64,000 nucleotides of DNA from Anaerovorax odorimutans (GTDB lineage: Bacteria > Bacillota > Clostridia > Peptostreptococcales > JAAYPU01). The notes beneath the pieces were generated by a model, which was not told where the DNA came from, ran no database searches, and was given only the letters and a program-made list of their open reading frames with translations. The stretch lies in contig JAENZQ010000010.1 of NCBI GenBank assembly GCA_016841185.1, positions 1 through 64,000 of the forward strand, read 5' to 3'. Positions 17,498-43,398 of the stretch are shown here, one piece after another. A program made the translations under genes and the position numbers. The stretch's first letter is position 1, and each line of letters opens with the position of its first letter.

Positions 17498-17761
17498 GCT
17501 GTGCACCTGCCTTTGACATACTGTTCCAAGCGCTGTTTATGCAAGAAACTCAAATCAGACAAAACTGCGGCACATAGAATAACCCGCTTATCGCTGCTTC
17601 CTTCCGGACCTGACGCGTTCACGGACTTCTATTGCACAGGGCCCAATTCTCAACATCTATTGCATAGGGCTGCCTTACAACAGCAAGCCGCGGGCAGGAA
17701 TTCACCCCTGCTATAGCGGGTTGCAGGTACAGGGCACCGCTGCCTCCCCGGCTAGCACAGC
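17498..17761 (-). ncRNA. ffs: Signal recognition particle RNA (large, Bacillus type)
   Basis: About 264 nt. The ends GCTGTGC and GCACAGC pair to close the molecule. The conserved domain IV hairpin is recognisable as GTCAGGTCCGGAAGGAAGCA, with the GGAA-type loop and the asymmetric internal loop bound by Ffh. The length indicates the long form with an Alu domain, as in Bacillus and Clostridium, rather than the 4.5S form. It is followed by a clear terminator and preceded by tRNA-Ser. Confidence 0.95.
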
Positions 17762-17763
17762 AT

Positions 17764-17851
17764 TGGCGGAGAGGACGGGACTCGAACCCGTGGGGCTGTT
17801 ACACCTTACACGCTTTCCAGGCGTGCCCCTTAGCCACTCGGTCACCTCTCC
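17764..17851 (-). tRNA. tRNA-Ser (anticodon GGA)
   Basis: Class II tRNA of 88 nt with encoded CCA. The acceptor stem is GGAGAGG/CCTCTCC, the anticodon arm CACGC-CTGGAAA-GCGTG gives GGA, the variable arm is long, and the T-arm has GGTTCGAGTCC. It lies 2 bp upstream of the SRP RNA on the same strand and is probably cotranscribed with it. Confidence 0.97.
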
Positions 17852-39835: not shown

Positions 39836-39864
39836 GAAAAAAGGATTTTGCATCTGCAAAACCC
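39836..39864 (-). terminator. Terminator of metK
   Basis: On the minus strand GGGTTTTGCA-GA-TGCAAAATCC is followed by seven T. It lies about 40 bp after the metK stop codon. Confidence 0.85.
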
Positions 39865-39902: not shown

Positions 39903-41096
39903 TTAAAATCCTGCCTCTTTTCTGAGGTATTCAGCTTTATCTGTCTTTTCCCAAGGCAGGTCGATATCTGTTCTTCCAAAATGACCATAAGCAGCTACCT
40001 GTCTGTAAATAGGCTGTCTCAGATTGAGATCTCTGATAATGGCTGCCGGCCTTAAATCAAAGTGTTTCATTATAAGTTCTGATAATTTTTCTTCCTCAAC
40101 TTTTCCGGTCCCAAAAGTCTCCACTAAAACAGACACCGGTTTAGCAACGCCGATGGCATAGGCCAATTCTATTTCGCATTTGTCTGCCAGCCCTGCTGCT
40201 ACAATATTTTTTGCCACATATCTTGCCGCATAAGCTGCTGAACGGTCTACCTTTGTAGGATCTTTACCGGAAAAAGCGCCGCCTCCATGTCTGGCATATC
40301 CGCCGTAGGTATCCACAATGATTTTCCTTCCGGTCAATCCTGCATCGCCTTTTGGTCCTCCTATAACAAATCTGCCGGTAGGATTGACATAATACTTGGT
40401 GTTTTCATCCAAAAGCTCAGCGGGAATCACTCCTTTTATTACTTTATCAATAATGTCCTTTTTTATCTGGCTCTGCTGAACCTTCGGACTATGCTGAGTG
40501 GAAACAAGGACAGTATCCACCCGAACAGGCTTGTCATCTTCATATTCAACCGTAACCTGCGTTTTCCCATCTGGTCTCAGATAGGGAAGTGTTTTGTTCT
40601 TTCTGACTTCCGATAATTTTCTTGCCAGCTTGTGGGCCAGTGAAATGGGCATCGGCATCAATTCAGGTGTTTCGTTACAGGCAAATCCGAACATGATTCC
40701 CTGGTCTCCTGCACCAATGGTATCTAAATCTATATGATCCTTAAACTCACCGGTTTTATATTCAAGAGCCGAATCAACACCCATTGCGATATCTGATGAT
40801 TGTTCGTCTATTGAAGTAAGCACCGCACAATTTTCCGCATCAAATCCATACTTGCCTCTTGTATATCCTATATCACTTATCACTTTTCTGATCAGTTTCT
40901 GAATATCTACATAACAATTGGTTGTGATTTCGCCCGCCACCAGAACATATCCGGTGGATACGCTTGTTTCTGCAGCGACTCTGGCATATGGATCTTTTGA
41001 AAATATCTCATCCAAAATGGCGTCTGATATCTGGTCACATATTTTATCCGGATGTCCTTCCGTAACAGATTCTGAAGTAAATAGCCTCTTATTCAT
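39903..41096 (-). CDS. metK: S-adenosylmethionine synthetase
   Basis: Cytosolic enzyme of 397 residues making SAM from methionine and ATP. Diagnostic motifs: [22 protein letters not shown] near the N-terminus, the family signature [12 protein letters not shown], and [21 protein letters not shown]...[16 protein letters not shown]. Length is typical. The start follows GGAGGTAA. A SAM-I riboswitch with its own terminator lies directly upstream, so the gene is switched off when SAM is plentiful. Confidence 0.97.
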
Positions 41097-41160: not shown

Positions 41161-41300
41161 AAAAAAACCTCTTTCTTAGAAGAGGTACATAATACCCTCA
41201 TCTACCAGAAAATTCATTCTGTAGGACTTAGCACCTTGACATATACATATCAGGTTGCCGGGCTTCACCGGGCCTATTCCCTCTGCCTCTCTTGATAAGG
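41161..41300 (-). promoter_or_regulatory. SAM-I (S-box) riboswitch with terminator
   Basis: On the minus strand the leader begins CTTATCAAGAGAGGCAGAGGGA (41299 downwards), then holds the S-box segments GGCCCGGTGAAGCCCGGCAACC and AAGGTGCTAAGTCCTACAGA, and a closing helix. An intrinsic terminator, CCTCTTCTAAGAAAGAGG plus T-run, ends at 41161. It lies 65 bp before metK and fits SAM-dependent termination. Confidence 0.95.
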
Positions 41301-41398
41301 TAATACAATATGAATTTCACATTTATTCTATCATAGTAAACTGAAATGTCAATATTTACACTTTTTCAGTTTTAATCCTCTTCTCTTTCTATAATGAT

Positions 41399-42244
41399 TT
41401 ACACTTCTATTGTAACATTGTCGATCAATCTTATTGAATCAAAAAGAACCGCTACCGCAACAAGAACTTTCCCTTGTATCTTTTTTACTTCTTTCAGAGA
41501 TTCCGCTTCAACGATTGAAATGTATTCTACTTCTGCATTTGCTTGATTAGTCAGGATCTGTTCCATTTCAGATTTGATCCTGCAGCAATCAGAAATACCT
41601 TTATTAACCAATTCTATTGCCTTTTTCAATGATCTGTACATAACCGCAGCATTTGATCTCTGTAGTTCCGATAAAAGAATGTTTCTGGAACTCATGGCAA
41701 GCCCATCATTTTCCCGTATTGTAGGACTGACAATAATTTCAGGATCCATATTCAAATCCCTGACCATTTGCTTAATGATAACTGCCTGTTGAGCATCTTT
41801 CTGACCAAAATAGGCTCTGTCAGGATGAACAATATTTAGAAGCTTCAATACAACTGTAGCAACGCCAATAAAATGCCCCTTTCTTTTTACCCCACAGAGC
41901 ACATCTGATATTTCCTTTACTTCTATATAGGTTTTATACCCTTCGGGATACATCTCCATAACATCCGGATGGAAAATAACATGTGTCCCTGCACTTTCCG
42001 CCGACTTTAAATCTTTTTCCATATTTGCCGGATATCTATCCGCTTCTTCCGGCTTTCCGAATTGCAAAGGATTTACAAAAATACTAACGACTACAATATT
42101 ATTCTCTTTTGCCGCTCTTTTAACCATAGAAAGATGGCCTTCATGAAGAGCGCCCATGGTTGGAATGAATCCCACGGCATTTCCTGAAGCCTGCTGCTCT
42201 CTTATAAATGCTTTCATTTCACTGATTTGATTAAAGATTTTCAT
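41399..42244 (-). CDS. panC: Pantothenate synthetase
   Basis: Cytosolic enzyme of 281 residues joining pantoate and beta-alanine with ATP. It carries the HIGH-type motif in PTMGALHEGH (28-37), VVVSIFVNPLQFG, YFGQKDAQQ and the KMSKS-like AMSSRN. The start follows AAGGAGG. panB and panD are not adjacent. A terminator hairpin ends only about 25 bp before the start codon, leaving no room for a promoter between them, so panC is probably read from an attenuated leader or by readthrough. Confidence 0.95.
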   Translation of the reverse strand: MKIFNQISEMKAFIREQQASGNAVGFIPTMGALHEGHLSMVKRAAKENNIVVVSIFVNPLQFGKPEEADRYPANMEKDLKSAESAGTHVIFHPDVMEMYPEGYKTYIEVKEISDVLCGVKRKGHFIGVATVVLKLLNIVHPDRAYFGQKDAQQAVIIKQMVRDLNMDPEIIVSPTIRENDGLAMSSRNILLSELQRSNAAVMYRSLKKAIELVNKGISDCCRIKSEMEQILTNQANAEVEYISIVEAESLKEVKKIQGKVLVAVAVLFDSIRLIDNVTIEV

Positions 42245-42268
42245 ACTGCCTCCTTATATGCTTTGCAT

Positions 42269-42349
42269 CAAAAAACCTTCCTGACAAAATCAAGAAGGTT
42301 TTACTTACTACTTTTCCCTGATTCTGTCTCTGTCATCTGATCAAAGCAG
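42269..42349 (-). promoter_or_regulatory. Leader with terminator directly before panC
   Basis: A terminator-like hairpin (arms ACCTTCTTG and CAGGAAGGT on the minus strand, then TTTTTT; 42269-42303) is preceded by a second possible stem-loop at 42308-42349 (CTGCTTT...AAAGTAG, with inner GAT/ATC pairing). The position suggests attenuation of panC. RNA elements called pan motifs are known upstream of pantothenate genes, but I cannot confirm a match. It may instead only end the DUF4349 transcript. Confidence 0.5.
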
Positions 42350-42474
42350 AAATCAATTTTATTTTGTGTAAAATGATATTATGTGTGTGATTCTTACGAT
42401 ATCACCACTTATATATAATCATACAAGTTTAATCGGATTTTTCAACTATTTTCTACAATAGTTCATTTTTCATC

Positions 42475-43398
42475 TTAATCCTTTTTTCTTCTTATTCTAC
42501 TCCATACGGACCGGAAAGGAAATACTATATATTTGAAAGCTTTTTTTCTCAGCAATATAATCAAAATAATCAACAGGACCAGATAAGGCATAATATAGAT
42601 CAGGGAAATAACTGCATTCTGAACAAAATCCGCAAATAATTTTCCTGACTCTTTGACAGCTTCTTTCATTTCCTTAGAAAAAGTATCCGGAACAATGGTT
42701 ACCTCTTCCACCTCATATACATTGACGGTAATGGTAGAATAATCAATTAGAGAATCCATTTTTTTTAAGGTTACCGTATTATTCTCGATCTGATACCTTA
42801 CTTCCTGAAGTTCTCTTTCCAATGCAATAATGTCTTCTAATTTATCTGCCTTTTTTAACAGTTCAAGAAGCCTTTCTTCTTGAATATATTTCGTTTCCAA
42901 CTTGGCCTCGATATCATAATACGCTTCGGTTACATCTTCACTGTTGGTATGAATGGAGCTGATATTACCCCAGTTTTCTGCTGTCTTTTTGATATATTCA
43001 AACTTTTCCTTGGGGATTCGGAGAACGTAATACGCATATCTGGGATCCTTTTCTTGGATTCCTCTTCCTTCGATTGACGAGCTCTCTATATACCCTCCTA
43101 CCTCGTTTACTTTGTTTTCTATACTTTGGGTAGTCTCATCAAAATCTTTTGTCTGTAAAGAGATCTCAGCTTTATAAATAATTTTGTTGTTAGCTGTACG
43201 AATTATTTGTTTTCCTGCATAATCAACTGCCGATTCCCCTCCGTCTTCTTCAGTACGACTCATATCCTGATCCATATTCTCATCAGGTGCCATAGCGGAT
43301 TCTTCTATTGCAGCCCTATCCTGAGATACGCCACAGCCAGAAATCAATGATAGGATCATTATGATGATAACGGTTAAAACCCCTGCTCTTTTTATCAT
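42475..43398 (-). CDS. DUF4349 lipoprotein
   Basis: Predicted lipoprotein of 307 residues. The signal peptide ends in the lipobox LISGC (Cys22). The body has the DUF4349 pattern (IRTANNKIIYKAEISLQTKDFDETTQSIENKVNEVGGYIESSSIEG) and a coiled-coil-like section near 195-225. It ends with a membrane helix (YLVLLIILIILLRKKAF) and a basic tail, so it is anchored at both ends on the outer face of the membrane. The function of the family is not known. It is transcribed alone after GGAGG. Confidence 0.85.
   Translation of the reverse strand: MIKRAGVLTVIIIMILSLISGCGVSQDRAAIEESAMAPDENMDQDMSRTEEDGGESAVDYAGKQIIRTANNKIIYKAEISLQTKDFDETTQSIENKVNEVGGYIESSSIEGRGIQEKDPRYAYYVLRIPKEKFEYIKKTAENWGNISSIHTNSEDVTEAYYDIEAKLETKYIQEERLLELLKKADKLEDIIALERELQEVRYQIENNTVTLKKMDSLIDYSTITVNVYEVEEVTIVPDTFSKEMKEAVKESGKLFADFVQNAVISLIYIMPYLVLLIILIILLRKKAFKYIVFPFRSVWSRIRRKKD

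Follow-up and report, generated by a model that had tools for sequence, protein, structure and literature searches.

Directly upstream of panC, the gene for pantoate--beta-alanine ligase, Anaerovorax odorimutans carries an intrinsic terminator, and this raises the question of whether panC is controlled by transcription attenuation and, if so, which signal its leader RNA reports. An initial annotation had proposed exactly such an arrangement, i.e., a terminator that panC transcripts must pass within a leader sensing pantothenate or coenzyme A (CoA). The window examined here is the whole stretch of DNA that was analysed, namely 64,000 nt of assembly GCA_016841185.1 (contig JAENZQ010000010.1, positions 1 to 64,000), and the features of the locus, from upstream to downstream, are as follows:

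43398..42475, minus strand: DUF4349 gene, upstream of the pan motif and on the same strand as panC
42418..42445, minus strand: promoter-like TTGAAA-16-TATGAT (10 of 12 matches to the consensus), which would place the transcription start roughly where the pan motif begins
42408-42320, minus strand: pan motif RNA (RF01749), two bulged-A hairpins and an A/U-rich linker (Rfam cmscan)
42408..42383, minus strand: pan hairpin 1 (Rfam alignment and folds)
42349..42324, minus strand: pan hairpin 2, with the geometry of hairpin 1 (Rfam alignment and fold)
42302-42270, minus strand: intrinsic terminator, a 13-14 bp hairpin with a T-run (fold energy and strict scan)
42254-42249, minus strand: Shine-Dalgarno-like AGGAGG of panC, 3' of the terminator
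42244..41399, minus strand: panC, pantoate--beta-alanine ligase, 281 aa (open reading frame and profile matches)

The identity of the gene is clear from its product, which scores 330.1 bits against TIGR00018 (cut-off 212.75) and 343 bits against PF02569. Its leader RNA would thus run from the promoter-like site through pan hairpin 1, hairpin 2, the terminator and AGGAGG to the panC ATG at 42244, and the fold of positions 42410-42245 beats 200 of 200 shuffles (z -4.21). A covariance search for the pan motif, as the initial annotation had recommended, gave a match above the Rfam threshold (56.4 bits, with a gathering score of 36.2; E 3.7e-7; model positions 1-92 of 92). The 'second stem-loop' seen just upstream of the terminator is pan hairpin 2 (42349-42324 in the Rfam alignment). 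The interval that had been singled out begins at the panC ATG and reaches only as far as the first base of that hairpin, and hairpin 1 (42408..42383) thus lies outside it. Two other Rfam families were tried and rejected: the Phe leader (22.3 versus 55 bits) and the PyrR leader (22.1 versus 54 bits).

Each pan hairpin in this leader is 26 nt in size. Hairpin 1 consists of 3 bp, a bulged A on the 3' strand, 5 bp, a bulged A on the 5' strand and 2 bp (UC/GA), and it is kept in the minimum-free-energy fold as well as in the terminator-forced and antiterminator-forced folds; the two hairpins stand in tandem with two bulged A's each and with no non-standard pairs in the Rfam alignment, and the next gene after the motif is panC. 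The motif was described in 2010 by Weinberg et al. (PMC2864571), who, in the part of that article considered here, regarded it as suggestive of a dimeric protein site; in the corresponding parts of PMC5670726, PMC4342826 and PMC4634765 it is merely listed. The present element resembles the RNA as described in those passages of PMC2864571 in its whole-model match, its tandem bulged-A hairpins and its position directly before a pantothenate synthesis gene; it differs in standing before a lone panC, panB-panE being encoded at another place in a genome that has no further pan match.

Indeed, this is the single pan match in the whole genome at E 0.001; the Bacillus subtilis genome, searched as a control, also has a pan match. 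The panB gene lies on another contig and is followed by a PanE/ApbA gene (G000:C68, L188 49-3279), and the pan motif is absent there; this apparent operon follows genes for an IclR-type regulator and a formate/nitrite transporter, and could be a set that is separately regulated and even catabolic. Because the sole pan match precedes panC, only panC among the synthesis genes found is under predicted pan control. Neither a panD of the PF02261 type nor a DUF2520 gene was found in this genome, which is rated 100% complete (88 contigs). Thus panB and panC are present, but no aspartate decarboxylase of the PF02261 type, which would supply beta-alanine, was found.

The terminator's arms occupy 42302..42290 and 42284..42272, its T-run occupies 42275..42270, and its hairpin has a predicted energy of -16.3 kcal/mol (z -5.77; 0 of 200 shuffles as good). 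A strict scan, for which a stem of at least 10 bp and at least 6 T were demanded, returned two minus-strand terminators for the 64 kb of the window and 0 for 30 shuffled windows. (The other lies at 39842, minus strand, just 3' of metK, which ends at 39903.) The panC-leader terminator is absent from the stock scanner's listing, likely because part of the T-run pairs with A in the stem. Exactly as had been noted, 25 bp separate the end of the T-run at 42270 from the ATG at 42244.

A stable hairpin with a T-run thus lies between panC and a promoter that is predicted only: the scanned 4 kb contains 16 promoter-like sites against a shuffle mean of 15.4, so that the match by itself is weak and constitutes no evidence. 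Among the 107 pan leaders surveyed below, however, 38 have a TATAAT-like hexamer at -11 relative to the pan start, where such hexamers peak, which implies that in this order the motif tends to form the extreme 5' end of the transcript; the corresponding hexamer of the window's panC leader begins at -15. Transcription of panC therefore probably starts near the first pan base, and the promoter scan listed no promoter-like site on the minus strand between the terminator and panC.

What makes this terminator a candidate attenuator, rather than a mere terminator, is an alternative helix that it is predicted to form with the pan motif:

42328-42315, minus strand: predicted antiterminator strand A, the 3' strand of pan hairpin 2 plus the tail, GACAGAAUCAGGGA (duplex prediction)
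42296-42283, minus strand: predicted antiterminator strand B, UUCUUGAUUUUGUC, which takes in a stretch of the terminator's 5' arm, the loop and two bases at the start of the 3' arm

These strands form a predicted 14-bp duplex of -18.5 kcal/mol (p 0.015; 200 dinucleotide shuffles). None of the pan tails from 39 other non-redundant leaders (0/39) pairs as well with the window's panC terminator, and of 42,616 24-mers sampled across the window 66 pair with it as well or better. Pan hairpin 2 and the terminator are compatible with one another, and the predicted antiterminator excludes both; by prediction, in other words, the leader has an exclusive antiterminator with a strand common to the sensor. 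The antiterminator segment folded alone is unexceptional (z -1.34; 20 of 200 shuffles as good).

The two alternatives are nearly equal in energy: the antiterminator-forced fold has -41.9 and the terminator-forced fold -41.1 kcal/mol, and core-pair probabilities in the full leader are 0.25 for the antiterminator and 0.75 for the terminator. As the transcript grows, its best fold alternates: the antiterminator is favoured when the RNA ends at 42283 and again at 42259, the terminator at ends from 42277 to 42265 (including 42271) and at 42253 and 42247, and the full leader returns to the antiterminator. Because this succession is no single clean switch, energies alone leave the outcome undecided; so close a balance could be tipped, in this model, by a binding event on pan hairpin 2.

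In terminator/antiterminator riboswitches a strand of the sensor hairpin doubles in the antiterminator, and the terminator follows. One such system lies next to panC:

41301..41195, minus strand: SAM riboswitch (S-box, RF00162), 83.4 bits (Rfam)
41186..41167, minus strand: terminator-like site after the S-box (terminator scan)

Since the S-box and its terminator-like site lie between panC and metK, two attenuator-type leaders follow one another on one strand. As in the S-box, a strand of the sensor hairpin would be common to the antiterminator, with a terminator behind it, this being a prediction in the case of pan; the difference is that pan consists of two small modules of the same geometry and is not a known aptamer. 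If pan binds a protein, the likeness would instead be to the PyrR-binding pyr leaders, in which attenuation is governed by a protein; the difference is that the panC leader scores only 22.1 bits against that model, whose threshold is 54. (Elsewhere in the window, a large bacterial SRP RNA at 17499-17851 on the minus strand, with 196 bits, adjoins a tRNA.)

From this layout one may infer how the leader would work in the cell. Transcription would start near the first base of the pan motif. An effector, i.e., a protein or metabolite reporting that there is enough pantothenate or CoA, would hold pan hairpin 2 closed; with hairpin 2 closed, the nascent RNA would form the terminator at 42302-42270, and transcription would stop before panC. 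Without the effector, 42328-42315 would pair with 42296-42283, the terminator would be blocked, and panC would be made. The polarity, in which the bound state is the off state, is deduced from the geometry of hairpin 2, terminator and antiterminator. The panC leader is thus quite probably a transcription attenuator with a pan-motif RNA as its sensor, which is off when the effector is present. The attenuating leader proposed in the initial annotation accordingly stands as far as sequence goes, given the pan motif, the terminator and the predicted 14-bp antiterminator, and ligand sensing stands as a candidate property.

If strand exchange of this kind is a general feature of pan leaders, then other terminators should likewise be complementary to their own pan tails. 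At E 0.001 the survey gave 107 matches to the motif, spread over 89 of the 393 genomes sampled from the same order (102 of the matches, in 84 genomes, exceed the curated cut-off); owing to the strict filters used in this survey, these counts are lower bounds. The first recognised gene after each match was identified by tblastn with ten query proteins, and representatives were checked against Pfam and NCBIfam:

Rossmann/DUF2520 protein, presumably the ketopantoate reductase PanG: 69
DUF997 (YhdT-like) protein, whose gene is taken here to belong with PanF: 11
ECF S-component, assumed here to carry pantothenate: 11
panC: 6
panD: 6
OPT-family transporter: 2
panF-like symporter: 1
panB: 1

All 107 matches precede a gene type of pantothenate synthesis or (in part by inference) uptake, a count that is partly circular inasmuch as eight of the ten queries came from these same loci; in 4 of the 107 the recognised gene is more than 300 nt from pan. 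Pfam and NCBIfam name panC, panD and panF, the last from a fragment below the curated cut-off.

By rule, a terminator-like hairpin is present in 65 of the 107 leaders, and in 63 of these it precedes the recognised gene, the hairpin being 3' of the gene start at the remaining two loci (L126 and L148). The pairing test drew on these 65 loci, 40 of them non-redundant, under a rule that admits a T-run lying partly in the stem. When terminators were permuted among the 40 leaders, with kinship handled by the removal of similar leaders only, 22 of 20,000 permutations matched the observed sum of own-terminator pairing (57 of 20,000 without the window's leader); with one leader dropped and hairpins before the gene start only, which leaves 39 leaders, the figures are 9 and 27 of 20,000, respectively. 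The same terminators pair with the pan tail at -11.67, with hairpin 1 at -8.39 and with the linker at -4.88 kcal/mol. Taken singly, 10 of the 40 leaders reach p 0.05 and 30 do not, and covariation counted in a fixed register over 36 distinct rows is weak, its total being reached in 334 of 5,000 permutations. Judged by sequence, the complementarity of terminator to pan tail is locus-specific across the family.

Rfam models were also run on 40 of 80 panC loci, comprising the 20 best-ranked and 20 chosen from the rest, mostly Firmicutes and Chloroflexi. The pan motif was found at 5 of these 40; in three (L045, L055 and L091) it ends about 75-130 nt before panC, and by eye the tail complements the terminator in L045 and L055 and not clearly in L091. 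In another panC leader with pan (L158) no terminator was seen. The two same-family genomes in the survey (G008 and G020) have no pan match, and hence no close relative confirms the panC leader.

Other pan leaders appear to act on translation. In 10 of the 107, all of them before ECF S-components, the pan match closes with the Shine-Dalgarno sequence, and L165 has the same layout outside the rule; in these ECF S-component leaders (L129, L138, L156, L164, L165, L169, L170, L171, L175, L179 and L180) the pan tail itself is the Shine-Dalgarno sequence (ACGGAGG or CCGGAG), for which reason the family seems to have a translational form in which the ribosome site is set against hairpin 2. The remaining 32 of the 107 have, by rule, neither a terminator nor an end-of-pan Shine-Dalgarno. 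In 18 of these 32 a DUF2520 start codon follows pan by 20-60 nt; UAUCAC precedes the Shine-Dalgarno in 13 of the 18, and in 12 of the 13 it is followed by GUGAUA or GUGGUA, with which it can pair (several rows being near copies). In L028, L117, L118, L125, L127 and other leaders lacking a terminator, UAUCAC has two possible partners, the flank of the Shine-Dalgarno and the 5' strand of hairpin 1, a pattern of sequence from which a translational switch working via hairpin 1 instead of hairpin 2 appears possible. Termination and Shine-Dalgarno masking would have equal polarity.

The survey also bears on the nature of the signal. There are 16 genomes whose pan matches, as far as found, stand solely before genes of transporter type. 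Three of them, G178, G106 and G139, have both panC (PF02569) and panB (PF02548); in the other 13 neither gene was found. Of the 16, 13 reach a completeness of at least 90% with contamination no higher than 5%, and in 11 of these neither gene was found. Because pan precedes transporter-type genes where panB and panC were not found, pantoate, ketopantoate and the PanB and PanC proteins are unlikely as the general signal. Provided that the family as a whole uses one kind of signal, it is probably pantothenate, a later compound of the CoA pathway, or a protein sensing one of these. Two genomes of a single genus, in neither of which panB or panC was found, carry pan before an OPT-family transporter (L115 and L122), which suggests that this transporter imports pantothenate or a peptide-like derivative such as pantetheine, the substrate being a guess.

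How, then, might the leader be read otherwise? The terminator could be constitutive, ending read-through from the DUF4349 gene or fixing the level of panC, with pan acting in another way, e.g., on RNA stability. In keeping with this, the DUF4349 gene lies upstream on the same strand, the interval separating it from the pan motif is free of listed terminators in both scans, and the full leader at equilibrium favours the terminator, 0.75 to 0.25. Against it, complementarity to the pan tail is specific to the locus throughout the family; moreover, any panC transcript begun near pan has to run through the terminator, which is 3' of pan and 5' of the panC ribosome site, and this reading is accordingly considered improbable. 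Ribosome stalling on a leader peptide, as in amino-acid operons, is more improbable by far: an 11-codon frame, read by hand, does begin at ATG 42336, and there is the sub-threshold Phe_leader match (22.3 bits), but by eye no Shine-Dalgarno precedes the frame, the frame has no run of regulatory codons, and the match falls far below its threshold of 55.

Within the attenuator reading, the sensor could work in either of two ways. The pan motif may be bound by a dimeric protein that monitors the pantothenate/CoA pool and that, by closing pan hairpin 2, would favour the terminator. This is what passages of Weinberg et al. (PMC2864571) suggest, and it fits the presence of one small bulged-A module twice in this leader; against it, no candidate protein was found, though no systematic search was made, and autoregulation by PanB or PanC is unlikely, as pan occurs in genomes where neither was found. 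The chances of a protein sensor appear evenly balanced. Alternatively, pan may be a metabolite-binding riboswitch, i.e., a tandem aptamer for pantothenate or a CoA-pathway compound, as would suit its occurrence in this order before both synthesis and uptake-type genes, the absence of detected panB and panC in 13 of 16 transporter-only genomes (the signal then probably lying at or after pantothenate) and, by analogy, the predicted strand exchange of the riboswitch kind. The 26-nt size of the hairpins here and the discoverers' view, in passages of PMC2864571, of a dimeric protein site speak against it, as does a 2022 review, the relevant part of which (PMC10043782) reports CoA and its acyl derivatives to have no validated riboswitch; this form of the attenuator is possible but somewhat doubtful.

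In the part of the open-licence PMC literature covered, preprints aside, neither a validated ligand or effector of pan nor a description of pan before transporters was found. Passages of PMC10393543, PMC6593275, PMC11487621 and PMC8247775 do not treat pan RNA, pan-related words are absent from PMC7266159, PMC12570885, PMC3766115 and PMC11477304 and occur in PMC8632094 in a reference only, the passages of PMC2864571 considered here do not mention an antiterminator, and PMC9971707, in the part covered, discusses CoA riboswitches as lacking. What this analysis adds is the strand-exchange model and the constraint on the signal; the pan motif itself was already known as an orphan RNA.

The best reading of this locus is feedback attenuation of panC by that known orphan RNA, with panC, under the model proposed, most likely off when vitamin B5 or coenzyme A is sufficient. 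As a single-gene leader with an explicit attenuator model that can be tested by mutation, it offers a short template for such tests, and the occurrence of pan before transporter-type genes without panB or panC narrows the signal to pantothenate, later compounds or a sensing protein. A broader and rather unlikely view is that the pan RNA family serves in general to shut down vitamin B5 supply by reading the pantothenate-to-CoA pool itself, through direct binding of pantothenate or a CoA-pathway metabolite, the output being, as part of that same tentative view, a terminator, a Shine-Dalgarno-masking hairpin, or a Shine-Dalgarno set directly against hairpin 2. Should direct binding nevertheless prove true, pan would be the missing natural riboswitch of this pathway, filling the gap named in the relevant part of PMC10043782.
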